A program made the translations under genes and the position numbers. Below, piece by piece: positions 9,438 to 37,909 of a DNA stretch of 56,902 nucleotides. The stretch comes from an uncultured Bacteroidales bacterium (GTDB taxonomy: Bacteria > Bacteroidota > Bacteroidia > Bacteroidales > Muribaculaceae), in assembly GCA_902777835.1 (NCBI GenBank), contig CACYVC010000019.1, positions 1 to 56,902 of the forward strand. The letters are read 5' to 3'. How positions within the stretch are numbered: the first letter of the stretch is position 1; each line of letters opens with the position of its first letter. The notes beneath the pieces were generated by a model, which was given only the letters and a program-made list of their open reading frames with translations, did not search any database and was not told the DNA's origin.

Positions 9438-9513
9438 GAAAATTAGTGCAAGCCGAATGAAAGACCAAATTTATTTGAGTTTTTCTGAGGCGCAGCCTAA
9501 TTTATCTAAATTT
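9438..9513 (-). repeat. Promoter-bearing repeat, copy A (toward alaS)
   Basis: Most diverged of five copies of one intergenic element. On the minus strand it has a TTG at 9466-9468, a 20-nt spacer ending CGGCTTGCAC, and a -7 box TAATTTTC at 9438-9445. The other end carries the conserved GGCGCAGCCTAATTTATC (9489-9506). It occupies the alaS promoter position within the 348-nt alaS/MerR intergenic region. The rest of that region (9514-9710) is A/T-rich with nothing else recognised. Confidence 0.75.
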
Positions 9514-9710
9514 CGGGCAAAGTTAGTAATTTTGCTTGTAATTTCTATAAGAGACCGCTTAAAAAAATAAAAAACTACGGATTTTTCTGATTGATCTGAT
9601 TTTATAATTCATTGATATTCATAAGTATTTAATCGTTATTGGTTGTCTGAAAAAATTCGTCGATGTAATTATTTGAAATTGTGAGTAATTGTATGAATAA
9701 ATTTGAAATC

Positions 9711-10052
9711 ATGGAAGATAAGCTTAGCAAGAAGTTCTATAAAATAGGAGATGTAGCAGAAATATTGAATATCCCCACTTCCACTTTAAGGTTTTGGGAG
9801 AAGGAGTTTACTGTAATCAAGCCTAAGCGCAATGCAAAGAATATAAGAGTTTATACCGTCAAGGACATCGAATCCATTAAGATGATTTACTATCTTGTGA
9901 AAGAAAAAGGTCTTAAACTGGATGCTGCTCAAGCTATGATTAAGCGCAACCGAGATGGAATATCAAAACAGTTTGAAGTAGTGGAGCGTCTAAAACAAAT
10001 GAGGACACAACTAATTCAGCTCGATAAAGCCCTCTCGTCGTTGAAAGGTTAA
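9711..10052 (+). CDS. MerR family transcriptional regulator
   Basis: A DNA-binding protein of about 113 residues. The MerR winged helix-turn-helix is clear: FYKIGDVAEILNIPTSTLRFWEKEF, then RVYTVKDIESIKMIYYLVKEKGLKLDAA, followed by a short helix for dimerisation. There is no Cys-rich or other ligand-binding C-terminal domain, so the inducer is unknown. Upstream in-frame starts exist at 9681 (GTG) and 9693 (ATG); I prefer 9711 because the protein then opens at the conserved MEDKLSKKFY segment. It diverges from alaS and could act on the shared intergenic region, but that is inference. Confidence 0.88.
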   Translation: MEDKLSKKFYKIGDVAEILNIPTSTLRFWEKEFTVIKPKRNAKNIRVYTVKDIESIKMIYYLVKEKGLKLDAAQAMIKRNRDGISKQFEVVERLKQMRTQLIQLDKALSSLKG

Positions 10053-10136
10053 GAGACACAGCTTGTGGCACCCCGCGTTTTTCTAAATTCTGGTTTACAG
10101 GCATATAACATCTATTCACTTAATAAACCCATCAAA

Positions 10137-11573
10137 ATGAAAAAACCAATACCCTTTATATCTATTCTGCTATCGTTAATTGTAACTACGTTTCCACAAC
10201 AGACAAGTGCTCATGACTTCGAGGTGGATGGCATTTATTACAAAATAAACGGCAACAATGTTACTGTAACTTATAGAGGAAGTTCTTCTGATAGTTATTC
10301 AAACGAATACACTGGTGCCGTGAATATACCATCAACGGTCACCTACAATGGCACTACTTACTCGGTGACTTCGATTGGCAATTCTGCTTTCAGTGGTTGC
10401 AGTGGTTTGACCTCGTTGACCATCCCTAACTCTGTGACTTCGATTGGAGGTGGTGCCTTCTCTGGTTGCAGTGGCTTGACCTCGTTGACCATCCCTAACT
10501 CGGTGACTTCGATTGGCAAACTTGCCTTCTCTTCTTGCATTGGCTTGACCTCGGTGACCATCCCCAACTCTGTGACTTCGATTGGGCAATCTGCCTTCGA
10601 AGGTTGCAGTGGCTTGATATCGGTGACATGGAATGCGAAAAATTGTAGTGATTTTTCAAGTTCGGATTCTGCTCCATTCAGAGGATTAACGGGTATTTCG
10701 TCATTTGTTTTTGGCAACCCCAACTCGGTGACTTCGATTGGCTCAAGTGCCTTCTCTGGTTGCAATGGCTTAATAGAGGTGACTGTCCCCAACTCGGTTA
10801 CTTCGATTAGCGTTGCTGCCTTCTCTGGTTGCAGTGGCTTGATTTCGGTGTCTATCCCTAACTCTGTGAGTTCAATCTCTAATCATTGCTTCAATAATTG
10901 TAGTAGTTTGACCTCGGTGACCATCCCCAACTCGGTGACATCGATTGGCGCCGAGGCCTTCTATGGTTGCAGTGGCTTGACATCGGTGACCATCCCCAAC
11001 TCGGTGACTTCGATTGGCAACTCTGCCTTCGAGTCTTGCAGTGGCTTGACCTCGGTGACCATCCCCAACTCGGTGACTTCAATTCCTAATTATTGCTTCT
11101 ATAATTGCAGTGGCTTGACCTCGGTGACCATAGGCAACTCGGTGACTTCGATTGGTAACTATGCCTTCTATGGTTGCAGTGGCTTGACCTCGGTGACCAT
11201 CCCCAACTCGGTGACTTCGATTGGCGAGAGTGCCTTCTCTGGTTGCAGTGGCTTGACCTCGGTGACTATACCAAACTCGGTGACTTCGATTCCTTATTGT
11301 TGCTTCTATTATTGCAGTGGCTTGACCTCGGTGACCATCCCCAACTCGGTGACTTCGATTGGCAGCTCTGCCTTCGCATCTTGCAGTGGCTTGACTGGCG
11401 AGCTGACCATCCCCAACTCGGTGACTGAGATTGGCAGAGCTGCCTTCAATGGTTGCAGTGGCTTGACCTCGGTGACATGGAATGCGAAAAATTGTAGTGA
11501 TTTTTCAAGTTCGGATTCTGCTCCATTCAGAGGATTAACGGGTATTTCGTCATTTGTTTTTGGCAACCGGTGA
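10137..11573 (+). CDS. BspA-like leucine-rich repeat protein, 5' part of frameshifted gene
   Basis: A secreted protein starting MKKPIPFISILLSLIVTT, a signal peptide cut near SAHDFEVDGIYY. It is then made of 23-residue LRR_5 (Treponema pallidum/BspA type) units of the form GCSGLTSVTIPNSVTSIG. A 33-residue non-LRR module (VTWNAKNCSDFSSSDSAPF...) occurs twice. Reading stops at TGA 11571-11573, within the second module. The + frame resumes in the next ORF, so the two parts form one gene with a 7-nt deletion relative to the repeat copy at 10711-10727. BspA-type proteins act in adhesion and surface display in other Bacteroidales. The ATG at 10065 is too far upstream of the signal peptide to be the start. 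Confidence 0.85.
   Translation: MKKPIPFISILLSLIVTTFPQQTSAHDFEVDGIYYKINGNNVTVTYRGSSSDSYSNEYTGAVNIPSTVTYNGTTYSVTSIGNSAFSGCSGLTSLTIPNSVTSIGGGAFSGCSGLTSLTIPNSVTSIGKLAFSSCIGLTSVTIPNSVTSIGQSAFEGCSGLISVTWNAKNCSDFSSSDSAPFRGLTGISSFVFGNPNSVTSIGSSAFSGCNGLIEVTVPNSVTSISVAAFSGCSGLISVSIPNSVSSISNHCFNNCSSLTSVTIPNSVTSIGAEAFYGCSGLTSVTIPNSVTSIGNSAFESCSGLTSVTIPNSVTSIPNYCFYNCSGLTSVTIGNSVTSIGNYAFYGCSGLTSVTIPNSVTSIGESAFSGCSGLTSVTIPNSVTSIPYCCFYYCSGLTSVTIPNSVTSIGSSAFASCSGLTGELTIPNSVTEIGRAAFNGCSGLTSVTWNAKNCSDFSSSDSAPFRGLTGISSFVFGNR
10370..11469 (+). repeat. 69-nt tandem coding repeats of the LRR gene
   Basis: The 23-codon units are nearly identical in DNA, not only in protein: the stretch GACCTCGGTGACCATCCCC recurs many times without synonymous change. 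Differences cluster in a few codons per unit (SAFESC, YCFYNC, YAFYGC, SAFSGC, CCFYYC, SAFASC). This pattern indicates recent duplication or gene conversion. Confidence 0.85.
10621..10719 (+). repeat. 99-nt exact direct repeat, copy 1
   Basis: Identical base for base to 11470-11568. It encodes the non-LRR module and ends TTGGCAACC. After copy 1 the reading frame continues into the next LRR unit. Confidence 0.9.
11470..11568 (+). repeat. 99-nt exact direct repeat, copy 2
   Basis: Second copy of the 99-nt module. Immediately after it, seven bases present after copy 1 (CCCAACT) are missing, which shifts the frame and creates the TGA at 11571. Confidence 0.9.
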
Positions 11574-11974
11574 CTTCGATTAGAGTACATGCCTTTGAGG
11601 GATGTAGTGGCTTGAAAACATTAATTATAGGAGACAATGTAACAAGCATAGGTGAATCTGCATTTTATAATTGCTCTTTTTTGGAAAATCTTGTCGCATT
11701 GAGAGAAAGACCTATTATAATTAATAGCAGTGTTTTTGAAGGAATCCCTAAAGCAAGTTGTGACCTCCACGTTAGACAAGGCTCAAAAATACGCTACGAG
11801 AATCAGGATGTTTGGAAAGACTTCCTGATAATCCTTGAAGATGCAGAAGACTTTGCAGATGTTGGCGGAGGTAACACTGGCAGTGGTGTTTATGGTGATG
11901 TCAACGGAGACGGCGTGGTTACTGCCGCCGATGTAACAGCTGTTTATGATATCCTGTTAGGCAGCGGAGAATAG
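11570..11974 (+). CDS. BspA-like LRR protein, 3' part with dockerin-like end
   Basis: The continuation of the broken LRR gene in another frame. Two more LRR units (HAFEGCSGLKTLIIGDN, SAFYNCSFLENL) lead into a non-repeat region. A Gly/Asn linker (GGGNTGSG) follows, then a C-terminal calcium-binding dockerin-like half motif, DVNGDGVVTAADV. The 'start' at 11570 is a GTG that is really a valine codon inside the original frame, so independent translation is doubtful. A strong terminator follows at 12033. If the 7-nt loss is an assembly error or reversible, the full protein would be about 614 residues. Confidence 0.7.
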   Translation: MTSIRVHAFEGCSGLKTLIIGDNVTSIGESAFYNCSFLENLVALRERPIIINSSVFEGIPKASCDLHVRQGSKIRYENQDVWKDFLIILEDAEDFADVGGGNTGSGVYGDVNGDGVVTAADVTAVYDILLGSGE

Positions 11975-12000
11975 TTCATGGTTTAGAGTTTGTAGTTGTA
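11973..12000. repeat. Heptanucleotide array overlapping the LRR stop codon
   Basis: Four 7-nt units (AGTTCAT, GGTTTAG, AGTTTGT, AGTTGTA). The first overlaps the TAG stop codon at 11972-11974. Same AGTTNNN family as the array after aroE. Confidence 0.75.
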
Positions 12001-12032
12001 ACGCCTTAAATACTCCGACAACTATTGCATAT

Positions 12033-12070
12033 AAAAAACGCGTCAGCATTTTTTGCTGGCGCGTTTTTTT
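12033..12070 (+). terminator. Terminator of the LRR gene
   Basis: An 11-bp stem (12038-12048 with 12054-12064, one G-T pair) with a five-T loop, preceded by six A and followed by seven T. It could work in both directions. Confidence 0.85.
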
Positions 12071-12109
12071 GTATAGGTTATTGGGTTTGTCGAATTATGC
12101 TATGAAATC

Positions 12110-12145
12110 TTGTGGGGCGCTTCGCTTAAAATTATATTAAAATTG
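12110..12145 (+). repeat. Interspersed GGCGCTTCGCTTAAAATT repeat, copy 1
   Basis: About 36 nt matching the reverse complement of 38010-38047 at nearly every position: TTGTG, a variable base, GGCGCTTCGCTTAAAATT, then a few bases and AAAATTG. It contains the GCGAAGC core on its minus strand. The remainder of 12146-12256 is A/T-rich with no gene. Confidence 0.7.
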
Positions 12146-12256
12146 ATTTGATAATTTCATATTTGCTGGTAACAATTTTTTTGAAAATTTTATATCTAAT
12201 TTTCATTTAATTTTAAGCACGCAGTGCGCCCTTCAAGACGAGAATTTTTTTCTCTC

Positions 12257-12301
12257 AACTCTGAACTCTCCACTCTTCACTCTCCCCTTGCGCGAAGCGC
12301 A
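12257..12301. repeat. Heptamer array plus GCGAAGC mini-hairpin
   Basis: Four NACTCTN heptamers (12257-12284) are followed by the palindromic 13-mer TGCGCGAAGCGCA at 12289-12301. That 13-mer abuts the stop codon of the S9 peptidase (12302-12304, minus strand). The 13-mer has a 5-bp stem and a 3-nt loop. Confidence 0.8.
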
Positions 12302-14557
12302 TTATCTCAAGTCAGGGTTAGTGATGTGGAGCTCTTTCTGTGTTTCGGGCATTGGAGTTTCTTGGCCCTTATTCTCCTCGGCTTTAATTTTGGCTTTTGC
12401 CTCTTGCTCAGCTTTGTAGGCTTTTGCTGCAGGGCTACCAGGTTTCAGCCAAGTGTCGAGCCATTTGAAGAACTCACGATGCCATACCAAGGCGTTCTGT
12501 GGGCGCAAGATCCAGTGGTTCTCTTCGGGGAAGAGCACCATGCGTGATGGGATGCCGCGAATCTGTGCAGCGTTGAATGCCTGGCATGCCTGGGTGAAGA
12601 CGATGCGGTAGTCGAGCTCGCCAGCGGTAATCATGATAGGCGTGTTCCAGTTCTCAACGAAGTTGATAGGATTGGCCTCACGATAGGTCTTTTGGGCATC
12701 GGCATTGTTCTTCTCCCAAACTGGTCCTCCAAGGTCCCATTGTGTGAACCACATCTCCTCGGTCTCAAGGTATTGTGCCTCGAGGTTGAAGATTCCGGCA
12801 TGAGCCAAGAAGCAGGCGAAGGTGTTGTTGTGGTTACCGGCAAGCCAGTAAACAGAGTAGCCTCCGTAGCTTGCGCCCACAGCACCCATGCGGTCACCGT
12901 CGATGTAGGGCTGCTGCTTCATATACTCGGCAGCGCTCATGTAGTCTTTCATGTTCTGACCTCCATAGTCGCGGCTGATTTGAGCGTTCCACTCAGTGCC
13001 AAAGCCTGGCAGACCGCGACGGTTAGGAGCGATTACCACATACCCCTGGCTTGCCATGAGGCGGAAGTTCCAACGATAAGAGAAGAACTGGCTAACTGGC
13101 GACTGAGGACCACCCTCGCAGAAGAAGATTGAAGGATATTTCTTGCTTGCGTCGAAGTCGGGTGGCAGCACTACCCACACTGTCATGTCTTTGCCATCGG
13201 TGGTCTTCACAATCTCTTTCTTGATTGTGATGGGCTTGAGCTGCTTCAAGATTTCGTCATTCACGTGAGAGAGCTGAACAGGTTCTTTGCCCATCTCCAT
13301 GCTGTAAATCTCATTGGGCTCAGCATAGTTGTGGCGCAAAGTAATTACCTTGCCATCCTTCAAAGGAACAATAGCTCCAAAGTCATAGTATTTGTTGTCC
13401 TCCTCATTGCGGTTTACAGGACTGATTGTGTCAACTTGTTGTGTAGCAATGTCGATACGGAACATTGGAATGGTGCCCATGTGGGGGGCAAGGAAATAGA
13501 TGTACTTGCCGTCGGGCGACCATGCGAGGTCGTCGGCGCTGTAGTCCCAGTTCTCGGTGAGGTCTTTCTTTTCTCCACTCTTCATGTCGAGGACGAAGAT
13601 GCGGTTTTTGTCGGCCTCATAGCCATCATGCTCCATCGACAGGAAGGCAAGCTTATCTTTGAAGATGCGTGGGTTGGTGTCATAACCCATCATGCCCTCA
13701 GTGAGGTTCTTGATAGTCTTTCCACTTGCCACGTCATAGAGGTAAAGGTCGCTGTTGGTAGAGAATGCATATTCCTTGCCAGTCTTCTTGCGGCATGTAT
13801 ATATAAGCTGCTTGCTGTCGGCAGTCCATGCAAAAGATTCGATACCTCCCCAAGGAAGCATAGGAGACTCAAATTCGGTGCCCTCAAGAATGTCTTTAGG
13901 ATCTTTAACGACGTTACCAGTAAAGTCAGCAACAAAGGGGTGAGGAACTTCGGTCACCCACTGATCCCAATGCTTGTACATCATGTCATCAATGATGCGG
14001 GCATTGGCTTTGTCGAGTTCGGGATAATGGTCGGTGGGCAAAGTCTTGCCATACTTAACATTGCTAATCATGACAATCTTAGTGCCGTCGGGCGAGATTA
14101 CAAATCCATCCACGCCATTTTCAAGCTCACTAACGGGTTTTCGGCTGCTGCCATCAGCATTCATGACCCAAACCTGAGTCTTTGAGCCTTCCTTTTTAGG
14201 GTCACAATAAAGGAATGCAATCATAGCTCCATCGTTTATCCAAACGGCGTTGTTCTCGCTGCTGGGGGTGTTGGTGAGATTGACCGCAGGAGTCTTTCCG
14301 TCAACATCCATCACCCAGATGTCGCTGTTGCCTTTATTCTCCTTCACATCTTGATAGTTGACATTGAAGAGAATGCGTGTGCCATCGGGCGATACTTGTG
14401 GGTCGCTTACGCGGCCAAGCGCCAATAGTACCTCAGGGGTGAATTGTCCGTCTTTGATTTCAATGGCTAACTTGTTAGCTGCGTCATCAGATTTGCAGGC
14501 AGTTAATGCCATCAAAACCGCTAATGATGCCATAAGTGTTGTTTTAAAACGATTCAT
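12302..14557 (-). CDS. S9 family prolyl oligopeptidase-type peptidase, lipoprotein
   Basis: A predicted lipoprotein (lipobox LTAC, Cys21) of 751 residues. An N-terminal beta-propeller of WD40/TolB-like repeats (VSPDGTRILF, ISPDGTKIVM, WSPDGKYIYF) precedes a C-terminal alpha/beta hydrolase. The catalytic triad is visible: Ser563 in GASYGGYS, Asp649 in GELDYRI, His681 in EENHWI. This layout fits dipeptidyl or acylaminoacyl peptidases of the Bacteroidota periplasm, which trim short peptides. The charged C-terminal tail after residue 715 (Lys/Glu/Ala rich) is unusual. The exact specificity is not readable from sequence. Confidence 0.93.
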   Translation of the reverse strand: MNRFKTTLMASLAVLMALTACKSDDAANKLAIEIKDGQFTPEVLLALGRVSDPQVSPDGTRILFNVNYQDVKENKGNSDIWVMDVDGKTPAVNLTNTPSSENNAVWINDGAMIAFLYCDPKKEGSKTQVWVMNADGSSRKPVSELENGVDGFVISPDGTKIVMISNVKYGKTLPTDHYPELDKANARIIDDMMYKHWDQWVTEVPHPFVADFTGNVVKDPKDILEGTEFESPMLPWGGIESFAWTADSKQLIYTCRKKTGKEYAFSTNSDLYLYDVASGKTIKNLTEGMMGYDTNPRIFKDKLAFLSMEHDGYEADKNRIFVLDMKSGEKKDLTENWDYSADDLAWSPDGKYIYFLAPHMGTIPMFRIDIATQQVDTISPVNRNEEDNKYYDFGAIVPLKDGKVITLRHNYAEPNEIYSMEMGKEPVQLSHVNDEILKQLKPITIKKEIVKTTDGKDMTVWVVLPPDFDASKKYPSIFFCEGGPQSPVSQFFSYRWNFRLMASQGYVVIAPNRRGLPGFGTEWNAQISRDYGGQNMKDYMSAAEYMKQQPYIDGDRMGAVGASYGGYSVYWLAGNHNNTFACFLAHAGIFNLEAQYLETEEMWFTQWDLGGPVWEKNNADAQKTYREANPINFVENWNTPIMITAGELDYRIVFTQACQAFNAAQIRGIPSRMVLFPEENHWILRPQNALVWHREFFKWLDTWLKPGSPAAKAYKAEQEAKAKIKAEENKGQETPMPETQKELHITNPDLR

Positions 14558-14617
14558 AAAAGATAGTTGTTAATGTGATTGATATTTGTTTTTTATGATT
14601 ATGTGCGTAATAACTTG

Positions 14618-14654
14618 CAAAATTAGCGAAAAATATTGATTTTCCGCTAATTTT
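14618..14654 (-). promoter_or_regulatory. S9 peptidase -7 box within an inverted repeat
   Basis: On the minus strand TAATTTTG (14618-14625) lies 61 nt before the S9 start. The box is part of a hairpin: AAAATTAGCG at 14619-14628 pairs with CGCTAATTTT at 14645-14654. The inverted repeat could be an operator or the terminator of the upstream TonB receptor gene. Confidence 0.4.
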
Positions 14655-14695
14655 ATGAGATGTTTTTTTGATGTTCTTTATTTTTATGTCATTTT

Positions 14696-16786: not shown

Positions 16787-16845
16787 GTATTTGATTGTTA
16801 GTGTTTTTTAGTTTTAATTCTTAATCTAGAATGGAGATATAGAGA

Positions 16846-17199
16846 TTATACTAAAAACACTGGAGGTGCCCGTGATTGCCTGTGGCCAGGTGTTATAGCG
16901 GGCAATGAGAATGTTTCTTGGCATTCGATAGAACAAACACTTTGCTGCAATGACCACAGTGTGGCTGATTGTAATGTAAACTGTTGATTGCTACTAATTT
17001 GGCACAAAAGACATGGGTGCATGTGATAATGCTCAACACTTATGTGACTATAGTGCTTAACATGGTGAGCGCACATGTCGCAGTATTCTTCATTAGAAAG
17101 CACTTTTTGTGGCTCATGGATATGAACCGCATTTATGGCTTGCATTGATAGCATTATTGCCAACAAGAGCCAAATGTATGTCTTTTGATGTGATTTCAT
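16846..17199 (-). CDS. Small secreted or anchored His/Cys-rich protein
   Basis: A protein of 117 residues with an N-terminal hydrophobic segment (8-24) followed by candidate metal ligands: HIHEP (26-30), CDMC (40-43), AHHVKHYSH (44-52), EHYHMHPCLLC (56-66) and a later Cys89/Cys93 pair. The end GHRQSRAPPVF recalls the RAPP-type tail of small proteins encoded beside TonB metal receptors (DUF2946-like); that similarity is from memory and not proven. It lies 59 nt upstream of the TonB receptor gene on the same strand. Likely role: periplasmic or surface metal binding or sensing. Confidence 0.65.
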   Translation of the reverse strand: MKSHQKTYIWLLLAIMLSMQAINAVHIHEPQKVLSNEEYCDMCAHHVKHYSHISVEHYHMHPCLLCQISSNQQFTLQSATLWSLQQSVCSIECQETFSLPAITPGHRQSRAPPVFLV

Positions 17200-17212
17200 G
17201 AATAAATCGCTA

Positions 17213-17220
17213 CAAAGTTA
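17213..17220 (-). promoter_or_regulatory. -7 box upstream of the His/Cys-rich gene
   Basis: TAACTTTG on the minus strand, 13 nt before the start codon, implying a very short leader for the small protein/TonB receptor transcript. No TTG at the usual -33 spacing. Confidence 0.45.
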
Positions 17221-17339
17221 TTGTTTTTTGATGAAAAGACGCTCATTTTTCTTAAAAAAATAAAATTATGATAGAATATACGGAAAACTTGTATATATTT
17301 GCACAAATATTCAATAATTGCGAATAAAAATACGATTAA

Positions 17340-18704: not shown

Positions 18705-18735
18705 CACATTGTTAATAACTTTCCTGTTTTTAATG

Positions 18736-18765: not shown

Positions 18766-18773
18766 CGGTTGCT

Positions 18774-23522: not shown

Positions 23523-23550
23523 GTGCATTGAGTATTATGAATTATGCATT
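23523..23550. repeat. Heptanucleotide array, four NNGNATT-like units
   Basis: GTGCATT, GAGTATT, ATGAATT and ATGCATT in register. The last unit touches the stop codon of the LRR gene on the minus strand. The GTGCATT unit is the one repeated inside the RsmF-like gene. Confidence 0.6.
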
Positions 23551-24710
23551 TAAATAAATATCTTCTTTACGTAGCTCCCAACCTTTACTATATAAACCCT
23601 GTTGCGAGGCAAGTCTATAACTTGCGAGTCACTTGAGATACGCTGGTAATAGAGCTTGCCGCTCATGTCCCACACGCTGGTCCACTTCATATAGGTGTCG
23701 GTATAGATATATATAGTGCCAAAGTGTGCAACTATGATGGGCTCAGGCTCTATAGGGAATGCGTCATCAATGAGTTGCTCAATGCCGGTTGTCTTTTCCA
23801 CAGTGACGTTGAACGGGTCGCTGTCGAACATTAACGAGGTTGGAACAATGGTGTAATTGGTATTGTGGTCCAAGGCGGGAAGATAGAAATGGTTAGCCGA
23901 TGTAACAGCTACGAGTTCATCGTTCTCGTCATAAATCTTGTAAGCGAGATTATTGCCGAGGGTGATTTTCTTCCAGTCTTGATTATAGGACTCGCCGTTA
24001 AATTCCATAGTGGGGTAGAAGTCATCGCTGGGGAATAGTGTGAAAGTGTCAACGTTGCCCCACACGGTATCGTCGCTGTAAGAGTCGATGGTTTCGTCGT
24101 CGGCAACAACGAGATCAACGCCATGCACTCCGCCAAAGGTGTTGTCGCCCAGCGTGATTGGCGCTTCGGTAGCGGCGCTGTATATTTCATAGAGGTTATG
24201 GCAACCGTCAAACGCGTAGTCGTCGATATATTTCAGCGAGGCAGGCAGCATCACGGTGTGAAGCATCGCGCAGTCTTGGAATGCGCCTTCTCCAATGTCT
24301 TTAATGCCCTCAGAAAGAACTATGTTTACAAGGCTAGTACCCGTGAAGCAGTGGTCGGGAATCTCTTTAAGATCAAGAGGTAGCGTTACATCGCTCAAAT
24401 CGGTGGCGAATGCAAAGGCGTTTTCTTCGATACGACTTACTGAATTGGGAATGACGACTTCTGTCACTTTAGAGTGAGCAAAAGCACCCTCTGCGATAGC
24501 GACAACTCGATAATTCTCTCCATCATAGTTTACCGTGCTCGGGATGATGTAAATGCCTTCATAGGCATTAAGGCCATCAATAATATTTTGGTCCACAGCC
24601 ACTTCGTGGTGATGGCCAGTGAGGCTATAGACAATGCCTCCACTAACAAAATCACCTGCCCAAGTGCTGATGGATAGAATAGTAAATAATAATGTAAAAA
24701 TGTATCTCAT
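23550..24710 (-). CDS. BspA-like LRR protein with type IX-like C-terminal domain
   Basis: A secreted protein of 386 residues with a signal peptide (cut near STWAGDF) and about six LRR_5 units between residues 50 and 200 (VTEVVIPNSVSRIEENAFAF and similar). A non-repeat region follows, then a C-terminal segment ending WDMSGKLYYQ...YIVKVGSYVKKIFI. That end resembles type IX secretion (Por) sorting domains, so the protein may be exported across the outer membrane and anchored. The units are not identical at DNA level, unlike the gene at 10137. A promoter-bearing repeat (copy B) lies 34 nt upstream. Confidence 0.85.
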   Translation of the reverse strand: MRYIFTLLFTILSISTWAGDFVSGGIVYSLTGHHHEVAVDQNIIDGLNAYEGIYIIPSTVNYDGENYRVVAIAEGAFAHSKVTEVVIPNSVSRIEENAFAFATDLSDVTLPLDLKEIPDHCFTGTSLVNIVLSEGIKDIGEGAFQDCAMLHTVMLPASLKYIDDYAFDGCHNLYEIYSAATEAPITLGDNTFGGVHGVDLVVADDETIDSYSDDTVWGNVDTFTLFPSDDFYPTMEFNGESYNQDWKKITLGNNLAYKIYDENDELVAVTSANHFYLPALDHNTNYTIVPTSLMFDSDPFNVTVEKTTGIEQLIDDAFPIEPEPIIVAHFGTIYIYTDTYMKWTSVWDMSGKLYYQRISSDSQVIDLPRNRVYIVKVGSYVKKIFI

Positions 24711-24744: not shown

Positions 24745-24838
24745 CAAAGTTAGTGCAAACCGAGAGAAATACAAAATGAAAATCAAAGTTTTTCATTTTT
24801 ATTTCCTAGAAGTAGCCTAATTTATCTAAAATTAGTGC
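24745..24838 (-). repeat. Promoter-bearing repeat, copy B (toward the LRR gene)
   Basis: On the minus strand: TTG (24772-24774), the 19-nt spacer TATTTCTCTCGGTTTGCAC, and TAACTTTG (24745-24752). The element body has a hairpin of A-rich and T-rich arms and ends in AGCCTAATTTATCTAAAATT. It is oriented so that its promoter drives the LRR gene at 24710. Confidence 0.8.
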
Positions 24839-24866: not shown

Positions 24867-25658
24867 TTAAATATTGCTCTGCCTTTGCCTTACTGCTTCA
24901 AAAAGAAGGATGGCAGTGGAGACCGAGACGTTAAGGGAGTCGAGTTGTCCTTGCATTGGTATGCGTATGTGTGCAGTGGCGGCTTCTCGCCAGGCGTTAG
25001 TGAGACCTGTTGCCTCAGTGCCCATTACAATTGCTGTGGCGCCACGCATGGGGGTGTCGTAATAGGGTTCACTGTCTTGAAGTTGGGCTGTAAGGATGCT
25101 GATGTTGTTGTCTTTAAGGAAACTGATACATTCGTCGCTTGTGCATGCCACACAAGGAACAGTGAAAATGGCGCCAATAGAGCTGCGTATTAGGTTAGGG
25201 TTGTAGAGGTCGGTCAATGGGTCACACACGATGACAGAGGTGGCATGTGCAGCGTCGGCACTGCGTAGCACAGCCCCGATGTTACCTGGTTTCTCCACTC
25301 CCTCGAGCACAACGATGAGTGGGTTGTCGCCTAGACTGATGTCGCTCAGCGCCAGTTGGCGTGGCTGCACGATTGCCATCACTCCTTCGGTAGAACCACG
25401 ATAGGCAATCTTGTCATAGACCTGAGGAGTGACTTCCACCATCTCGGCTTTTGCGACGTTCAGGTTGCCAATGCTGAATAAGGCCGGGCAGTAAATCACC
25501 GTTTCTACCTTAAAACCAGCGTTGATGCAATGCTGCAGTTCTCGTGCTCCTTCAACGACGATGAGTTGCTCGCTGCGACGCAGCTGCGCCTTTTGCTGCA
25601 GCGCCATTAAGTGCTTGATGCGTGGGTTTTGGGTGCTTGTAATGCGAAGAATGTCCAT
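24867..25658 (-). CDS. TrmH/SpoU (SPOUT) family RNA 2'-O-methyltransferase
   Basis: A protein of 263 residues starting MDILRITSTQNPRIKHL. An N-terminal substrate-binding domain of the L30e-like type (about 1-90) precedes a SPOUT knot with all three motifs: EGVEKPGNIGAVLRSADA, IVMGTEATGL and IPMQGQLDSLNVSVSTAIL. It transfers a methyl group from SAM to a ribose 2'-OH of rRNA or tRNA; which nucleotide is not clear. I reject the upstream start at 25730 because the extra 24 residues fall inside promoter repeat copy C. Only 20 nt separate the -7 box from the ATG. Confidence 0.9.
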   Translation of the reverse strand: MDILRITSTQNPRIKHLMALQQKAQLRRSEQLIVVEGARELQHCINAGFKVETVIYCPALFSIGNLNVAKAEMVEVTPQVYDKIAYRGSTEGVMAIVQPRQLALSDISLGDNPLIVVLEGVEKPGNIGAVLRSADAAHATSVIVCDPLTDLYNPNLIRSSIGAIFTVPCVACTSDECISFLKDNNISILTAQLQDSEPYYDTPMRGATAIVMGTEATGLTNAWREAATAHIRIPMQGQLDSLNVSVSTAILLFEAVRQRQSNI

Positions 25659-25678: not shown

Positions 25679-25759
25679 CAAAATTAGTGCAAACCGAGAG
25701 AAATACAAAATGAAAATCAAAGTTTTTCATTTTATTTGCGAGGTGCAGCCTAATATATC
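25679..25759 (-). repeat. Promoter-bearing repeat, copy C (toward the SPOUT gene)
   Basis: On the minus strand: TTG (25706-25708), spacer identical to copy B, and TAATTTTG (25679-25686). The internal hairpin arms are 25701-25716 and 25723-25737. Its far end joins copy D, sharing the AAAATTAGTGCAA segment. Confidence 0.85.
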
Positions 25760-25852
25760 TAAAATTAGTGCAAGTCGAGAGCAGAACAAAACAATAAACT
25801 AAGTTTTTTTATTTTTTATGCCTAGGCGCAGCCAATTTATCTAAAAATAGTT
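25760..25852 (-). repeat. Promoter-bearing repeat, copy D (tandem with C)
   Basis: Diverged copy in tandem with C. TTG is at 25787-25789, the spacer of 19 nt ends CGACTTGCAC, and the -7 position reads TAATTTTA (25760-25767). Its right end (GGCGCAGCCAATTTATC) leads into a separate + strand -7 box. Confidence 0.7.
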
Positions 25853-31061: not shown

Positions 31062-31073
31062 CTTGCTGAGAAA

Positions 31074-34000
31074 TTACTGTTTAGAATTGGTGCTTGCTGG
31101 TTTTGGCGAGTTGTCGGTATTGACACCTTGTTGAAGGTCGTTTTCTTGTTGCGGCTCTTCTTTTTTAGACTTATACTTCCACTTGAACAGGTCTTTTAAT
31201 GATGACAGCTTGTGTTTCATCACGAAACTGATTCCTGTTACTGTCACTTCACCTTCAAGGATACTTTCCAGGCCTCTATGCCTGAATAGCCTGAGGTATC
31301 TTGTGCCAGTAGGATTGAGAAGGTACTCAAACGAGATGTCACTTATAAGGTTTTGTGAGAAGTTCTGCTCGCTCGTCGCCTCGGTGGAGTATTCACCTCC
31401 CACAGCAATCTTGAATCTCTCTCCAAACAATGTTTTCGACAACCGGTAGCTGTAGCTGGTTTCTAGCCTGCTGCCTTTTTGAGTTCCTTCATATTGGTTG
31501 ATGCCAAACGAGAGGTCAACACCCTTTAGATTGTTGGCAGTCCAGTTGTTTATTTGAGATTGCAAGAACGAGAAGAGCGCACCAGTCGTTGAGAAGTCGC
31601 CAGTGGGCATTGAACCAGAGTAGGAGTTGTAAAGAAGCAGGTTGATGGCAGTTTGTGAACGTTGTGTTTCGGTCAAGGTTTGCAGCTCGCTCTCCACTGT
31701 GGCGTCGTTCTTTGCTTCCAGGTCAATCTTGAGGTCGATGTTGCTGAGGGTGTTCTTGAGCTCAGCTATGATGTCGAAGTCAACGAGCCTCGAGCCACTG
31801 CCGTTGGTGTTGTTCACGCTGGTTCTAACGCTATTGGTTGCTTTTAGGTTGAGCTGCGGGTTGAGCATTTCGCCGTTCCAAGTTAGGCTGCTTCCTTCCA
31901 CAAGGTTGAAGATCTTTTGGCTGATTACTGGTGGAGTGTATCTAACAACGCCCGAGGAGATGGTGTAAGTTCCTGAGAGGTGGTCTTTACCTGCAAAGTC
32001 GAGTAGGTATCTAAGACTTCCTGAGCCATCAACCGAAACCCTGTCTTTTCCTTCGGGTTGTAGGAATGCGTTGATTTTTGCGCCTTTCTCCACGTCGATG
32101 TTTACAAGAACATTAAGTGCCGAAGGCGTTGTTCCGCCAGTGATGATGGTCTCGTTGAGCCACGTGGTGTCGTTGGGATTGATAAATGTTACCATTCCTT
32201 CTGTGGCGCTGTTGTTTACTATCGAGTTTATGTCGTCTTGCATCACGTAGGTGATGTTAGAGCCTGCTAGCAGTTTTGCATCTGCATTGACAGCAGTGAG
32301 ATTGTTTCGTGACCTGACGCTGCCATCAATGTCGATGAAACCATTACCAAAAATTTCAGAGAAGCGCTTTTGAGTGCTACCGAAGAATTGTATGTTTTTG
32401 CCTTTAATGTCAAGGTCCATCTTGATGTCATCAAACGACCTGAAATCTACCGAGCCATTGAGTCTCGCTGCGTTGTTGTTGAGTCCAAAGATTTCGTAGT
32501 TGTCAAATTCAATAACATTGTCGTTGATGTCGATTTGCTTTTCCGACAGGCGCAATGAACTGCCATATCTAGGCAGTTTCACATAGGCGGTATCGCTCAC
32601 GAGGAAGCCATTCACAAGTGGGTTGTCGAGTGAGCCGTCAACCGTGAGCTCACCATTGGCAAAGCCATCGAGCATAACCATTCTTCCTGGAATAAGAGGA
32701 GATATCTTTCTTATCGGGAACTTGTTGAGATCAACTTTCACGTTCAATGGGCTTGTTGCCGTGCTGTCGTTAAGAGCGCCATAGGCAACGGCAACATCCG
32801 AGCCGTCGATATTGAGATTGGCGGTGATGTTGGTGCTTGATGTTCGTGGGTCGATAGTGAGATTGGTTTTCATCTTGAAATCGCCCTCTGGCATACGGTT
32901 GTAAGTGAATTTGCGCAGCTCGAGTTCTCCATCACCTTCAAAGTTGCGACCGTCGTAGGAGAGTGCAATATCAGCATCCATGATACCCGATACCGACTCT
33001 AGCGAAGGCACAATATTTGTCCACTCCTCGATTCTGAAGTTCTTGATGTTGGCAAGTATGTTTTGCTTCCCTGCTACCTGTATCGGGTCGGTTTTAAGAG
33101 AAATGAGGCTAGAGTCTCTTTCAAGGGTTATATCGGCCTCAAGTCGCTTTTCGCCAAAGTCAAGTTTCACATAGTTCTCGTCATTGAGGTTCCATTGCTT
33201 GTAGGCAATGATTGGCTGATGGGGCATGATGTTGGCCGAGATGATGGAGTCTTGAATTAAAGCGTTAATTCCCAAGTGATACCCCGTCTCTTTGTCAATG
33301 TTCTTTTGGCTGAGGAGCATATTCATATTCGAGCCCTTTGCCGAGCCGGCAATATCCACTTGAGCCATATCGTCCCATGACCCTTTTTTGTTTTCCATGT
33401 GCAAGTTGTAGCCAATCGTCTTATCTACTTCCACGATGTTGAAAACCAGTTGGTCAATGACATGAGAGCCATATCCCAGATTATTGGCCATGGCATGAGC
33501 GTTGAGCGTGGAGTCCTTGCTTATGTCGGCCTGCAAATCCCTGAAGTCGATGTCCCATTTTCCCACGTAACGTTGAATGACACCTCTGGGGCCCATCTTC
33601 ATTTTCAGGTTGAACTGCGGCACCTCATCGGCGATTTCATTCACGTTAAGGTCAACCTTCTTGTATTGACGTTTTGCTATCTCGATGCACCGGTCAAACC
33701 CCTTCATCAAATCATTTACGCTGTGAGGAGAGTTGAAATCGACATAATTGCTCTGCTCATTGAAACTAAATGATGATGAATTGTTGTTGAAGTCGAATGC
33801 GACATCGGCTTTCTCGGTGTAGAAGCGCTCGTCATCAATAGTCCAATTCAGTTCATCAAGCGACATGGTGCCTTGATATTCATTGGTCTTGAGGTTGAAT
33901 TGCCCATGCATCTCGATGTCGCCGCTTCCGTTGCATGGCACATCCATTATGTTTAATGCCTGCAAGTCTAGATCTCGGATGTTGCCTTTGAGGTTGACGT

Positions 34001-36200
34001 TGTAGGTGTCGCCGTTTATTGTGCCATTCACGTCGGCATACACGTCGCAGTTGGGATTTGCCGAATTGATGTGGCCCTCAAAAGCATTCCCGTCGAGAGT
34101 GACATTGCCTTGCAGGTCTTTATAAGTCTTATTGTTGAAAACCACGCTCTGGAGGTCGATGTCGGCATTGATGCGGGTGCTGGGGTTGAGCATGTCAAAT
34201 TTTTGACCTTTGGCTTTAACTGCTGCTGTGAGGCTGCCCACTCCCAGCTGTGGAGCAATCTCCTGCACTGGGAAGGCGTTGAAAGTGGCGTCGATGTCAT
34301 ATTTCTCGGTCTTCGGGTCAAAACTTCCCCGTGCCGCCATGCTACCGCGATTGCGAGCATTGACTTTAGCGTCGAAGTTTGTGCCGTTGAGTTTCACGTC
34401 GGCATCGTAGTTGCGGTAGTGCTTGCCGGCATAGTCGATATCGTCGAGGTTGATTCGTGCATTTACCGCTGTGTTGTTGCCCAGGAAGTCAAATCCATGC
34501 CCATCGGCCTTGATGTGAGCGCTCACGTTGTTGACATCGAGCTGTGGCACCAGTTTCTTTACTGGCAACGACCTTGCTGTAGCATCAACTGTGTATCGGT
34601 CGTTGCCGAGTTCATAACTTCCTTTACCCACAAGGCTGCCGCCAGATTTCAGTTTCATGTCGATGTTTCCGGCAATCGACTTGGGGTTATATTTGATGTT
34701 GCCCTTGAGGTTCATGGGCACCACATTCACTTGCTTCTGTAGGTCTTTGTTGAGGAACTCATTCTTGGCAAAATCTATATTGTCGATATTGGCATCAAGG
34801 TTTACATCAGCCTGCATTTTAGAAGGATCAGTGATGTTCTTAATGTTTCCGTCAACTTTAGACTTTACAAAACCGGGGATTTGCAGTTCGCCGTTCTTTA
34901 TGTCAAGGTCGCGGGTGTTGCCCTCAAACTCACCTTTCACCTTTATGGGATGATTCTTGGGTATGAATTTTGTGGCGCCAGCCAGCGATGGCATCACCGA
35001 GCCGATTTCCCTCAGGTCAACAGTAGCATCGGTGGTTACGTTCATGCTTCCTGTGGGATTCTTGTCAAAGATGCTCATATCCACCTTGCCGTCAAGGTCG
35101 ATTGTGCTGTTCTTGGTCTTGACGGAGAAGTCTTTAACTTGAATGTCTTGCGGACTCACATCCACTTTGCCGTGAGCATCAGCAATCTCCAAACCACCAC
35201 GTTCTTTGGCCTTGAGTTCCTTGATGGGCACAGAGACGATGCTTCCTCTGTTGTAGAAGTCAGTGACAGTAAAATCGAGGTCGCTCACTTCCACATGGCT
35301 CATGTCAAGGCCGCTGCCAGGAGTTTTGCCTTTCTCGGCATAGATGGCGTGACCGCCTTTCATCGTGAGCGTGTCGGCTCGCACGGTCCAAGGCACTGTG
35401 TCGCTCGGATCTTCAGGTTTAGGAGGAGTAGGGTAAAGCTTGTCGTAAGTGGCAGCCACACGCTCATTAGGATAGACATACTTGCAATCGATGCTGTCAA
35501 CCTTTAGCGAGCGGGCGTCCACGGTGTGAAGTCCGGTATCCACACATCCGTCTTTAAGCTCAGCTCTGGCAAGGTGTGCATCCATCCTGTGGATAGTGGG
35601 TTCCATTACCATGGAGTAATCCACGTCGTTGAGTACTAGTCGTTGGGCTTCTATCCTCCATGGCTTGGACTTGGTGGTGTCGCCGTCGTGATATGACTTA
35701 TGTGAATATAGTGCAAGCTGCACCTTGCCACCTGTGAGTTCTCCATCGAGCACGTTGATTTTGCGATTGTCGAGGTCAATGTGGCTTCCTGTTAACTTGC
35801 AGTGCTTTACGTCGGCACGCAGCAGCATCGACGCATCGTCGCTCACAAGACGGTACTTGCCTTCCTCTAGTTCGGCTCCATCAATCTCAAAGCGCTTGTC
35901 AAGCAGTGGTTTAACGGCTACACTGGCAGTGAAATTCTTGGCAACTATCATCGTGTCGCCATGCTCGTCGAGCAATGCCATGTCATCGAGGGATATGTCG
36001 AGTGGGAACTTAACGAGGATTCTGCCAATGCTCAAGTCCATTCCCGTCTTTTCCTTTACATAGTGGCAGGCGATGTCTTTGGCCTTGTTCTGAACCCAGG
36101 GAATGTACAGCAGGAAAGGCAGCGCTATGATTAGCACCAGCAGAATGCCGAGTATCCACTTCAGCGTCTTCCAAATCCTATTTTTAACTGTCTTTCCCAA
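31074..36200 (-). CDS. tamB: Translocation and assembly module protein TamB
   Basis: At 1708 residues this is the longest gene of the window. A single N-terminal membrane helix (about 13-33) is followed by a long run of beta-taco/AsmA-like repeats (for example the VDGSLDNPLVNGFL and VDARARSLP-type segments). The C-terminal DUF490 (TamB) domain holds LLYNSYSGSMP and the conserved SFGINQYEG...GSRLETSYSYRL region. These proteins form a hydrophobic groove spanning the periplasm for lipid transfer to the outer membrane. The C-terminus is a Gln/Asn/Lys-rich tail. It is the first gene of the tamB-tamA operon. Confidence 0.93.
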   Translation of the reverse strand: MGKTVKNRIWKTLKWILGILLVLIIALPFLLYIPWVQNKAKDIACHYVKEKTGMDLSIGRILVKFPLDISLDDMALLDEHGDTMIVAKNFTASVAVKPLLDKRFEIDGAELEEGKYRLVSDDASMLLRADVKHCKLTGSHIDLDNRKINVLDGELTGGKVQLALYSHKSYHDGDTTKSKPWRIEAQRLVLNDVDYSMVMEPTIHRMDAHLARAELKDGCVDTGLHTVDARSLKVDSIDCKYVYPNERVAATYDKLYPTPPKPEDPSDTVPWTVRADTLTMKGGHAIYAEKGKTPGSGLDMSHVEVSDLDFTVTDFYNRGSIVSVPIKELKAKERGGLEIADAHGKVDVSPQDIQVKDFSVKTKNSTIDLDGKVDMSIFDKNPTGSMNVTTDATVDLREIGSVMPSLAGATKFIPKNHPIKVKGEFEGNTRDLDIKNGELQIPGFVKSKVDGNIKNITDPSKMQADVNLDANIDNIDFAKNEFLNKDLQKQVNVVPMNLKGNIKYNPKSIAGNIDMKLKSGGSLVGKGSYELGNDRYTVDATARSLPVKKLVPQLDVNNVSAHIKADGHGFDFLGNNTAVNARINLDDIDYAGKHYRNYDADVKLNGTNFDAKVNARNRGSMAARGSFDPKTEKYDIDATFNAFPVQEIAPQLGVGSLTAAVKAKGQKFDMLNPSTRINADIDLQSVVFNNKTYKDLQGNVTLDGNAFEGHINSANPNCDVYADVNGTINGDTYNVNLKGNIRDLDLQALNIMDVPCNGSGDIEMHGQFNLKTNEYQGTMSLDELNWTIDDERFYTEKADVAFDFNNNSSSFSFNEQSNYVDFNSPHSVNDLMKGFDRCIEIAKRQYKKVDLNVNEIADEVPQFNLKMKMGPRGVIQRYVGKWDIDFRDLQADISKDSTLNAHAMANNLGYGSHVIDQLVFNIVEVDKTIGYNLHMENKKGSWDDMAQVDIAGSAKGSNMNMLLSQKNIDKETGYHLGINALIQDSIISANIMPHQPIIAYKQWNLNDENYVKLDFGEKRLEADITLERDSSLISLKTDPIQVAGKQNILANIKNFRIEEWTNIVPSLESVSGIMDADIALSYDGRNFEGDGELELRKFTYNRMPEGDFKMKTNLTIDPRTSSTNITANLNIDGSDVAVAYGALNDSTATSPLNVKVDLNKFPIRKISPLIPGRMVMLDGFANGELTVDGSLDNPLVNGFLVSDTAYVKLPRYGSSLRLSEKQIDINDNVIEFDNYEIFGLNNNAARLNGSVDFRSFDDIKMDLDIKGKNIQFFGSTQKRFSEIFGNGFIDIDGSVRSRNNLTAVNADAKLLAGSNITYVMQDDINSIVNNSATEGMVTFINPNDTTWLNETIITGGTTPSALNVLVNIDVEKGAKINAFLQPEGKDRVSVDGSGSLRYLLDFAGKDHLSGTYTISSGVVRYTPPVISQKIFNLVEGSSLTWNGEMLNPQLNLKATNSVRTSVNNTNGSGSRLVDFDIIAELKNTLSNIDLKIDLEAKNDATVESELQTLTETQRSQTAINLLLYNSYSGSMPTGDFSTTGALFSFLQSQINNWTANNLKGVDLSFGINQYEGTQKGSRLETSYSYRLSKTLFGERFKIAVGGEYSTEATSEQNFSQNLISDISFEYLLNPTGTRYLRLFRHRGLESILEGEVTVTGISFVMKHKLSSLKDLFKWKYKSKKEEPQQENDLQQGVNTDNSPKPASTNSKQ

Positions 36201-36302
36201 GTTAATGTGCTAAAATTTTGCAACTTATGCTTATGACACCAACAAAAAAGATGCCAATAAACCTAATTTAAAATACAAAAATAAGAAAAAACTTTGAAAA
36301 CC

Positions 36303-36337
36303 ACCTACTTTTTTCAATGAAAAAGGTGTTTTTTTAG
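36303..36337. terminator. Possible terminator after the RsmF-like gene
   Basis: An interrupted stem of CACC...TTTTT with AAAAAGGTG lies between the 3' end of the RsmF-like gene and the tamB start. It is followed by T-rich tracts on both strands. Confidence 0.35.
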
Positions 36338-36359
36338 TTTTTTGAATGGATTTTCAGAC

Positions 36360-36395
36360 CAGTCGAACCTGTCAGACTAGTCCGACTAGTCCGAC
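36360..36395. repeat. Nonanucleotide array at the 3' end of the RsmF-like gene
   Basis: Four 9-nt units (CAGTCGAAC, CTGTCAGAC, TAGTCCGAC, TAGTCCGAC). The RsmF-like reading frame ends inside the array at 36372-36374, so its last residues VGLVGLV are encoded by the repeat. Confidence 0.75.
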
Positions 36396-37814
36396 CTGGG
36401 GTTTATCAGGCAGATGCGAGCTCAAGATGCGCCAAGATTTTGGGTAGAGATTATTGGCGCGGTTGCCTAAGTTGTTGACGAAGCCTAAAATGGCATTCTG
36501 GTAAGTAATCAATATATATCCTCGTGGAGCGTTAATGGTGATAGATTCACCTCGCAGATAGGCTATTGCAGTGAGGTAATCTACTTCGCATTTCTCGAAA
36601 GCACCATCTCGCAAGAGAGGCGACATAGCAAGATGGTGAGATGGAACGATTTTGTTGCCTTTAATGGTTCCAATCTCTAAGTTTAAGCCTTTAATTATAT
36701 GCAATTTATTAATGCTGACTATTGTATCTTTTATATATTTGCTAGTTGCAATAATATTGCCATTTTGCTCGCTTATTTCATAATTGCCGTTAAGCCATGT
36801 TGCCACTTTTTTGGGAACTATGGATGTAGCGTTTTGCTTTGGTTTTTTAGCGCCTGCGGCGCGTGAATGGTGGAAAGTGGAAGGTGGAAGGCGGAAGGCG
36901 GATTGTGCATTGTGCATTGTGCATTGTGCATTGTGCATTTTCCTGAGCACACATAAGAAAAGCCCCTCTCCACGCGTTTTGTGTGGCATAAAACGATAAC
37001 ATGGTATATTGTTTCCTGAGAGCTCGCCAGTTATGTTCCAAGACTGTTCATTAGGAATCTCTACAAAGTTGGCTCCTAGTTCGTTGGCTATATAAAGTGC
37101 CATTCTCTCGTTTTCGTCGAGGTTATAGGTGCAGGTGCTGTAGATGAGCAGACCGCCAGGCTTGAGGGCGGGCCATATGTCGTTGAGAATTTCACGTTGC
37201 CGCGCAGCGCATTGTTGTACCAGCTGTGGCGACCATTGAGCGACTGCTTCCTCATCCTTGCGGAACATGCCCTCGCCACTGCAGGGCACATCGGCTGCAA
37301 TGACGTCGAAAGCGTTTTCTAGCATACCGAGAACTCGTGGCGCGTCGTTGGTGACCACGCAGCTGTCGATGCCCCACTTTATGATGTTCTCGCGAAGGAC
37401 TTGCGCCCGCGGCGTAACTATCTCATTAGCAACGACGATGCTCCCTTGCGGCAGAGCTTGGAGAGTGGCTGTGGTCTTGCCCCCTGGCGCTGCGCACAGG
37501 TCAAGATAGGTGACAGGCTTACCAACAAGGCTTTTAATGACATGGTAGATGAACATTGACGAGGCGTCCTGCACATAGTAGCTACCAGCATGGAAATGCG
37601 GGTCGAAGGTGAACTGTGGTCGCTCTCTCAAATAGGCACCCATCTCGCACCAGGGGACACGCTCAAGTGAGGCTGGCGGCAAAAAGCCTTTGCAGTTGTT
37701 GAATCTCACCGATGTGACAGGCTCATTGTCCTCAATCGCCTGCAGCATAGCCCTTGCCTCGTCGCCAGGCAGCAACGAATTGATTTGCTCAATGAAGTGC
37801 TCGTTCAAATTCAT
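36372..37814 (-). CDS. RsmF-like 16S rRNA (cytosine-C5) methyltransferase
   Basis: A protein of 480 residues in the RsmB/RsmF (NOL1/NOP2/Sun) family, which methylates C5 of a cytosine in rRNA. The SAM motif LDLCAAPGGKTT (105-116) and both cysteines are present: Cys178 in DVPCSGE and the nucleophile Cys228 in YSTCTYN. A C-terminal RsmF-type domain follows after a linker. Two non-conserved inserts are encoded by simple repeats: residues about 292-322 (MHNAQCT repeated, then a GC hairpin) and the last seven residues. The promoter repeat copy E puts the -7 box only 4 nt from the ATG, implying a leaderless mRNA. Confidence 0.9.
   Translation of the reverse strand: MNLNEHFIEQINSLLPGDEARAMLQAIEDNEPVTSVRFNNCKGFLPPASLERVPWCEMGAYLRERPQFTFDPHFHAGSYYVQDASSMFIYHVIKSLVGKPVTYLDLCAAPGGKTTATLQALPQGSIVVANEIVTPRAQVLRENIIKWGIDSCVVTNDAPRVLGMLENAFDVIAADVPCSGEGMFRKDEEAVAQWSPQLVQQCAARQREILNDIWPALKPGGLLIYSTCTYNLDENERMALYIANELGANFVEIPNEQSWNITGELSGNNIPCYRFMPHKTRGEGLFLCVLRKMHNAQCTMHNAQSAFRLPPSTFHHSRAAGAKKPKQNATSIVPKKVATWLNGNYEISEQNGNIIATSKYIKDTIVSINKLHIIKGLNLEIGTIKGNKIVPSHHLAMSPLLRDGAFEKCEVDYLTAIAYLRGESITINAPRGYILITYQNAILGFVNNLGNRANNLYPKSWRILSSHLPDKPQVGLVGLV
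36850..36939. repeat. Heptamer array plus GC mini-hairpin inside a coding gene
   Basis: Ten 7-nt units in register (GTGGAAA, GTGGAAG twice, GCGGAAG, GCGGATT, then GTGCATT five times) span 36870-36939. Next to them, at 36850-36862, is the hairpin GCGCCTGCGGCGC (5-bp stem, 3-nt loop). The whole block is read in frame within the RsmF-like gene. Confidence 0.9.
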
Positions 37815-37818
37815 AGTG

Positions 37819-37909
37819 CAAAATTAGTGCAAGCCGAGTGAAATACAAAATCAAAGACGATGTTTTTGATTTTTATTTCCAAGGCGCCGCATAATTTATT
37901 CAAAATTAG
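37819..37909 (-). repeat. Promoter-bearing repeat, copy E (toward the RsmF-like gene)
   Basis: On the minus strand: TTG (37846-37848), the 19-nt spacer TATTTCACTCGGCTTGCAC, and TAATTTTG (37819-37826). Four bases later comes the start codon of the RsmF-like gene. The hairpin arms here read CAAAATCAAA and TTTTTGATTTT, with a compensatory change relative to copies B and C. Confidence 0.85.

Follow-up and report, generated by a model that had tools for sequence, protein, structure and literature searches.

The 56,902-nucleotide stretch at positions 1 to 56,902 of contig CACYVC010000019.1, from an uncultured Bacteroidales bacterium (Muribaculaceae, assembly GCA_902777835.1), hereafter the window, contains five copies (A to E) of a short repeat that an earlier note on this DNA had described as promoter-bearing and oriented to drive the adjacent genes. 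All five were verified by direct reading and by alignment of the window, and all lie, like the genes that follow them, on the minus strand. Rfam gave no match at gathering score in the window.

Copy A (9439..9507, 69 bp, E = 6.9e-12) belongs to a short subtype and stands upstream of alaS, which encodes alanyl-tRNA synthetase (6747..9362, PF01411) and has matches in 93 of the 101 genomes of the genus. Its −7-like box TAATTTTC (9438..9445) takes its final C from the host, as in several element-free alleles, and direct reading places a −33-like TTTG at 9466..9469, with a spacer of 20 nt. The native alaS −7 box TAACTTTG (9518..9525) remains intact upstream of the copy and is also present in element-free orthologues, for example at loci L167 and L179. 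Copy B (24746..24827, 82 bp, E = 1.4e-20; element-free allele L200) has its −7 box TAACTTTG at 24745..24752 and its TTTG at 24772-24775, and precedes the gene of a BspA-type leucine-rich-repeat protein (23550..24710, PF13306). Copies C (25680..25760, 81 bp, E = 8.1e-20) and D (25761..25842, 82 bp, E = 2.8e-17) abut exactly, forming the tandem already recognised in the earlier note: C, the gene-proximal unit, carries the box TAATTTTG (25679..25686) and TTTG at 25706-25709, while D, the upstream unit, carries the −7-like box TAATTTTA (25760..25767) and TTTG at 25787-25790. Next comes the gene of a SpoU-family RNA methyltransferase (24867..25658, PF00588), of which both element-free and filled alleles occur in relatives. 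Copy E (37820..37901, 82 bp, E = 8.1e-20; element-free alleles L227 and L228), with its box TAATTTTG at 37819..37826 and TTTG at 37846-37849, stands upstream of rsmF (16S rRNA methyltransferase, 36372..37814; PF01189, PF17125 and PF13636; matches in 91 of the 101 genus genomes). The spacer is 19 nt in B, C, D and E, in agreement with the TTG and the 19-20 nt spacer proposed earlier, and four of the five copies are indeed upstream of a correctly oriented gene, at box-to-start distances of 75 (A), 34 (B), 20 (C) and 4 nt (E, to the ATG). The copies had been rightly located, but the letters of their boxes had to be corrected to those given here, and element-free alleles revealed that the final base is not the element's own: it comes from the host or from the next unit.

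Copy number, distribution and orientation

Members of the element family measure roughly 67-90 bp, and the window copies all have a 5′ end near RGATAAATTAGGC and a 3′ end near CTCGGYTTGCACTAATTTT, with a core between them that varies. A profile search had been proposed in the earlier note; when we ran a covariance model built from the five window copies over the 2.89 Mb genome, at least 44 copies reached E ≤ 2.5e-6. This number is a minimum, as the best 150 of 1263 candidates were scored. Eleven weaker matches (E 0.02-0.81) consisted of seven reverse-strand shadows of the same palindromes and four partial copies. The 14-nt 3′ end TTGCACTAATTTTG occurred 51 times in the genome at up to one mismatch, compared to twice for the reversed pattern, and the 5′ end 40 times, compared to none. 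The observation made on five copies is confirmed, far beyond chance.

Matches were present in 91 of the 101 genus genomes, own genome included, and in 47 of the 48 high-quality ones; the relatives are metagenome-assembled genomes, many from rumen or gut. Within the order, a model derived from 79 copies, with the best 15 candidates scored per genome, matched 22 of 295 genomes including our own, i.e. 21 of 294 others, in 14 of 184 genera. Three same-family genomes of other genera were among those listed, and they gave no match. At the level of the phylum, a broader model and the best 11 candidates per genome yielded 3 matching genomes out of 392 (own included), the other two being within the same order.

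Four of the 44 copies in the own genome are followed by another copy. Among the remaining 40, none lies inside a called gene and 35 face a same-strand gene (p = 1.4e-6 against 50:50). In relatives, where copies were fetched via an intact 3′ end and the set is biased accordingly, 91 face a gene and one does not, a further five lack a called neighbour and 16 lie within tandems; in 15 genomes of nine other genera, the counts are 55 facing a gene, 6 not facing one and 17 lacking a called neighbour. Genes were called with a home-made caller trained on the window, and copies without a called neighbour (17 other-genus, 5 named-locus) are outside the ratios 55/61 and 91/92. Checked on position, the copies were neither gathered at 3′ ends nor randomly oriented, and the claim that they are oriented to drive the adjacent genes is supported. 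Three of the six non-facing copies of other genera are G320 copies sharing longer flanks; at loci L353-L358 of this genome, seven copies have common flanks on both sides, the element having seemingly multiplied within a longer repeat.

Of the 35 genes that the own copies face, 32 gave a Pfam match at E ≤ 0.001, although one of these stays under the cut-off of its family. They include alaS, a class I tRNA synthetase, tgt, efp, mreB, trigger factor, an RNB-domain protein, rsmF, an RlmL-like methylase, sugar-nucleotide enzymes, TonB receptors and BspA proteins, and no functional theme is common to the 35.

Hairpin and putative promoter

The 3′ end of the element reads TAnnTTT, and the next host base completes the Bacteroidota −7 box TAnnTTTG. 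The sigma-ABfr consensus, as described in the available text of PMC7366714, consists of TAnnTTTG at −7 and TTTG near −33. We found TAnnTTTG kept in 80 of 88 other-genus copies (the 18 weakest of 106 matches were left out), mostly as TATCTTTG (47/88), TATATTTG (20/88) or TATTTTTG (11/88), and TAATTTTG in 131 of 181 copies of the genus set, in which tandem-internal and some false rows are included. A TTG is correctly spaced in 139 of 153 genus-type copies. In the long subtype it occurs in 83 of 89 copies, and the mirror CAA of the opposite arm in 14 of 89; pairing within the hairpin would not by itself require this asymmetry. The distance from box to start codon is exactly 4 nt in 5 of the 35 own copies and at most 10 nt in 24 of the 91 fetched from relatives, and such short gaps would give leaderless or nearly leaderless mRNAs; in Bacteroides thetaiotaomicron, only about 3.7% of 5′ untranslated regions are given as shorter than 10 nt in the available text of PMC7366714. 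The start codon often stands 4-10 nt past the box (37814-37826 in the window; loci L051-L165).

The copies are imperfect palindromes, and their stems covary. Compared to shuffled sequences, B and E folded clearly better, and C and A more weakly so. In 153 distinct genus-type copies, the three positions of an inner 3-bp stem are paired 141, 135 and 135 times, against 116, 106 and 114 after shuffling, and the stem exists in several variants (ACC/GGT, GCC/GGC, GTT/AAC and others); the core hairpin reached a mean z of 3.5 against base shuffles. A 12-pair structure examined in 70 copies from many genera had 94.9% of its cells paired, compared to 77.0% when shuffled, with a covariation score of 0.455 that fell to 0.149 on shuffling and to 0.078 or less when the arms were slid. 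The two n positions of the TAnnTTTG box also vary jointly with the opposite arm across genera: among 230 copies, the arm/box pairs were AT/AT in 144, GA/TC in 33, TA/TA in 17 and AA/TT in 12 (77 of the 88 other-genus copies entered this analysis, duplicates and rows without a left-arm anchor having been dropped, which may favour pairing). Because the opposite arm changes to match the box across genera, hairpin and −7 box behave, as far as sequence goes, as a single co-evolving object. Terminal inverted repeats in the symmetrical sense were not found: the arms pair, but the left one begins about 4 nt inside the junction (R-GATA), whereas the right one reaches it. The earlier note had missed that the copies are palindromic, that native −7 boxes are split (see below) and that the family is spread across the order.

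Element-free alleles and tandem arrays

We found element-free alleles in relatives at eight loci, and the junction follows TTT or TTTT at all eight. The filled junction being defined by construction, the independent evidence is the element-free allele that aligns gaplessly across it. From 25 rows compared, 9 were kept for these loci, with left-flank identities of 55/60, 52/60 and 52/60 (both alaS), 57/60, 51/60, 48/58, 50/60, 35/45 and 19/24; eight self-matches (false elements, several in coding sequence) and seven array-internal repeats or poor alignments were dropped, as was L153, which supports the right side only. At the SpoU methylase gene, the element-free genome G081 reads TTACTTTTGTAAAAAA, and the filled G086 reads TTACTTTT, element, GTAAAAAATC; at rsmF, the element-free G096 reads TACTTTTGCACTATG and the window reads CTAATTTT, element, GCACTATG. 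At both (TACTTTT^G), the insertion point falls just ahead of the G of the native −7 box, which the element end restores. A third split box was seen between L146 and L106 (TAAATTTG), and a fourth candidate, L161 against L112, is ambiguous within a T-run. Other junctions are AGTTTT^CGG (L040 against L132, 93% identical over the aligned stretch), GAATTTT^G (L301 against L200) and TATTTTT^A (L197 against L209). At alaS, the native box TAACTTTG remains upstream and the element stands 10 nt downstream of it, at ATTTT^CG; the same point holds different core subtypes or a tandem in G000, G096, G104, G086 and G118, and this variety at one point points to repeated insertion at a single site. Overall, 14 of 27 non-tandem left flanks ending in TTT match TAnnTTT, compared to 91 of 880 intergenic TTT sites of the window (p = 9e-8).

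Tandem units abut, copies sitting in each other's 3′ ends. Of the 17 pairs of neighbouring units, 8 reach a similarity of 0.95 or more and 9 lie at 0.61-0.83, around the random-pair mean of 0.71; the unlike pairs would be the product of serial insertion. Isolated 3′ ends stand directly upstream of intact copies in G000 (C19:24827-24840, C2:1583-1596 and C10:64112-64125) and resemble residues of earlier units that a more recent insertion has overwritten. In other types of array in relatives (L154:1000-1400, L066, L072, L103 and L152), units begin with CGAAATTAGG and have the same 3′ end, some of them separated by small extra hairpins such as GCGCTTCGCGC.

Proposed mechanism, competing explanations and known systems

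In our judgement the repeat is probably a short mobile element that carries a promoter. We propose that this non-autonomous unit brings a complete Bacteroidota housekeeping promoter: one strand would fold into a long hairpin, with the −33 TTG in its 3′ half and the −7 box TAnnTTT as its 3′ end, and the next base, normally G, would be supplied by the target. Insertion would take place just after a T-tract, sometimes within an existing −7 box (TAnnTTT^G), leaving the old box on the far side while the element end rebuilds one. Because the rebuilt box keeps its position with respect to the gene, neither the start site nor the leader should change, although everything upstream would be new, so that transcription would start from the element and the native promoter would be replaced rather than supplemented. 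Since the element 3′ end is itself a TAnnTTT^G target, tandem arrays could grow, with the newest copy nearest the gene and the older units decaying. Mobilisation would be due to a hairpin-recognising recombinase, possibly a single-strand enzyme of the HUH type, an attribution we make only tentatively. Whether all this amounts to an order-wide mobile class that prefers the core promoter as its target, entering the −7 box between TTT and G, rebuilding it, replacing promoters of essential genes without moving their start and then being open to overwriting by the next copy in the same box, we consider an evenly balanced question.

Several observations weigh against this scheme. A canonical TAnnTTTG is clearly split in only three of the eight element-free alleles, with the ambiguous fourth; the base after the tract is C at alaS and L040, and at alaS the native box is still there upstream. 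Some of the TAnTTTT left flanks may be what is left of earlier copies. As for the hairpin, copy D folds no better than its own shuffles, further pair types are not above shuffles in the 70 copies (15 against 15.5), and 11 of the 230 copies present the arm/box mismatch AA/TC. The TTG asymmetry is weak in the short subtype (56/64, compared to 42/64 for the mirror), and in other genera a TTG is near the expected spacing in 55 of 77 copies. In the own genome, 5 of 40 copies have no same-strand gene ahead, two of them with an intact TAATTTTG, and the distance from box to called start exceeds 100 nt in 9 of the 35 facing copies. Duplication also builds arrays, 8 of the 17 adjacent pairs being nearly identical. 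Finally, selection for the promoter half was considered through unequal decay and set aside, as right-only and left-only remnants compared by eye were not clearly unequal.

The search for a mobiliser also weighs against the scheme. Transposases of the IS200/IS605 type act on subterminal hairpins and insert 3′ of a short fixed target without duplication, and the element has a hairpin and a TTT(T)^ target; no enzyme was linked to it in the Y1 correlation. Y1_Tnp (PF01797) has matches in 92 of the 101 genus genomes, but Y1 and element counts were uncorrelated over 48 good genomes (rho −0.01, elements counted among the best 42 candidates per genome), all nine Y1-less genus genomes carry elements, a copy was present within the fetched flanks at one of the 30 best-scoring genus Y1 loci, and none of the three Y1 loci of the own genome carries one. 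A Y1 transposase is disfavoured as mobiliser by these copy numbers and by the rare co-location at the loci examined. At 27 of the 30 loci, the protein has a YIxNQ motif and then HH, which by motif only would place it in subclass 1.2 as described in the available text of PMC6006769. Two Y1-transposase-like proteins (L049 and L050, at G000 C9:3014 and C3:38109; frames of 365 and 360 aa) have the motifs DHLH/YIHDNP and DHFH/YIVDNP and a long C-terminal extension; no element copies were found in their fetched flanks.

One alternative concerns the enzyme: the same element could be an ordinary miniature inverted-repeat transposable element (MITE), mobilised by a DDE transposase that duplicates a short TTTT-type target and not by a single-strand mechanism. 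This account is compatible with our preferred explanation, and we rate it as possible but less likely than not. The element is short, non-coding and multi-copy as MITEs are, and element-free alleles testify to its past mobility. TTTT is found on both sides, indistinguishable from element sequence, and two copies have an unusual base on both flanks (AGTTTT, C11:44127; GATTTT, G086 alaS). At three of the eight positions, left and right flanks agree more often than in shuffles (p = 0.0045-0.0105; p = 0.047 at a fourth), but this coupling is small and was calculated on 111 rows that include some false elements. Against this account, the ends are not symmetrical terminal inverted repeats, given the offset of about 4 nt, and the right TAnnTTT is nearly invariant whereas the left varies.

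An unlikely view is that of a selfish palindrome, similar to MITEs or to repetitive extragenic palindromes (REP), restricted to intergenic sites, with promoter-like ends as a by-product of a T-rich target and an orientation due to selection against disruption. The copies are palindromic, intergenic, multi-copy and tandem, a T-tract marks the junction in all of the element-free alleles examined, and in the short subtype the mirror arm has the TTG almost as often. Harmlessness, however, needs no near-uniform orientation (35/40, 91/92, 55/61), the long subtype keeps its TTG on the promoter arm and not on the mirror, and the box positions covary with the arm and yet stay TAnnTTTG in 80 of 88 copies. 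As for a shared operator or regulon evolved at each gene with no mobile unit, conserved body and promoter and an often short gene distance would suit it, but presence or absence against gapless orthologous element-free alleles, different subtypes at one site (alaS), unlike units in tandem, cores that vary while pairing persists and the lack of theme downstream make it highly improbable, so that of the two options left by the earlier note, dispersed element or shared control site, the former stands and the latter is disfavoured.

We found no description of the element among openly licensed papers. It resembles the Correia repeat enclosed elements (CREE) of Neisseria, described in the available text of PMC2649163 as short mobile units with inverted repeats and many copies (71 of 113 located 5′ of genes in FA1090) that can supply promoters, as the available part of PMC10969869 also reports, and insert at TA or CA. 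Like CREE as so described, the present element is short, promoter-bearing, present in many copies and mostly 5′ of genes; unlike them, it is without symmetrical terminal repeats, targets TTT(T)^ or sometimes a −7 box, and follows the promoter grammar of Bacteroidota in a host of another phylum. Dispersed hairpins are common to our element and to the REP/REPIN sequences that go with REP-associated tyrosine transposases (RAYT, or TnpA-REP); RAYT subclass 2.6 is described in the available text of PMC6006769 as occurring mostly in Bacteroidetes and flanked by unusual structures. However, no linked RAYT gene was found among the 3 own and 30 best-scoring genus Y1 loci, the sources available describe no promoter role for REP/REPIN while our unit of about 67-90 bp has a promoter built in, and the ends RGATAAATTAGG / CTAATTTT lack the tetranucleotide tag (GTAG or CGTC) that the available text of PMC3733652 places at one end of the palindrome. 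BrickBuilt of Porphyromonas gingivalis is, according to the available part of PMC4596501, MITE-like and intergenic, active as a promoter in E. coli reporters and likened there to putative mobile promoters; unlike our element, it is described with 23-nt direct repeats, bidirectional promoters and target-site duplications of varying length, with 19 copies discussed, and that description has no −7 box targeting. The concept of putative mobile promoters (Matus-Garcia 2012; van Passel 2014), in which promoters spread as mobile sequence, fits the present element, as compared through the available text of the citing paper PMC8049555.

Judged from sequence, two features seem new: the element sometimes takes a core promoter box as its target and restores that box from its own end, and across genera box and hairpin co-evolve. 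Promoters are usually viewed as evolving base by base; here whole promoters of housekeeping genes of gut and rumen bacteria have apparently been swapped by a targeted mobile unit. If true, this would account for a class of Bacteroidales repeats, offer natural pairs of filled and element-free alleles in which to measure the effect of promoter replacement, and define a portable promoter with a co-evolving hairpin and −7 box.

Window copy E had no plasmid match, and viral contigs gave no exact match to the genus-type 3′ end. The element type of other genera matches nine unannotated faecal phage records (MT835991.1 and eight more), eight of them across 80% or more of the query, as well as one plasmid, OY726013.1 of Phocaeicola massiliensis. 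In L061 (about 6230-6420, reverse-complement coordinates), we also observed another repeat in tandem, about 73 bp long (CTCGCCCCTGCGGGGCTCGCGATGC...), the copies of which end in or near the same TTTGCACTAATTTT.

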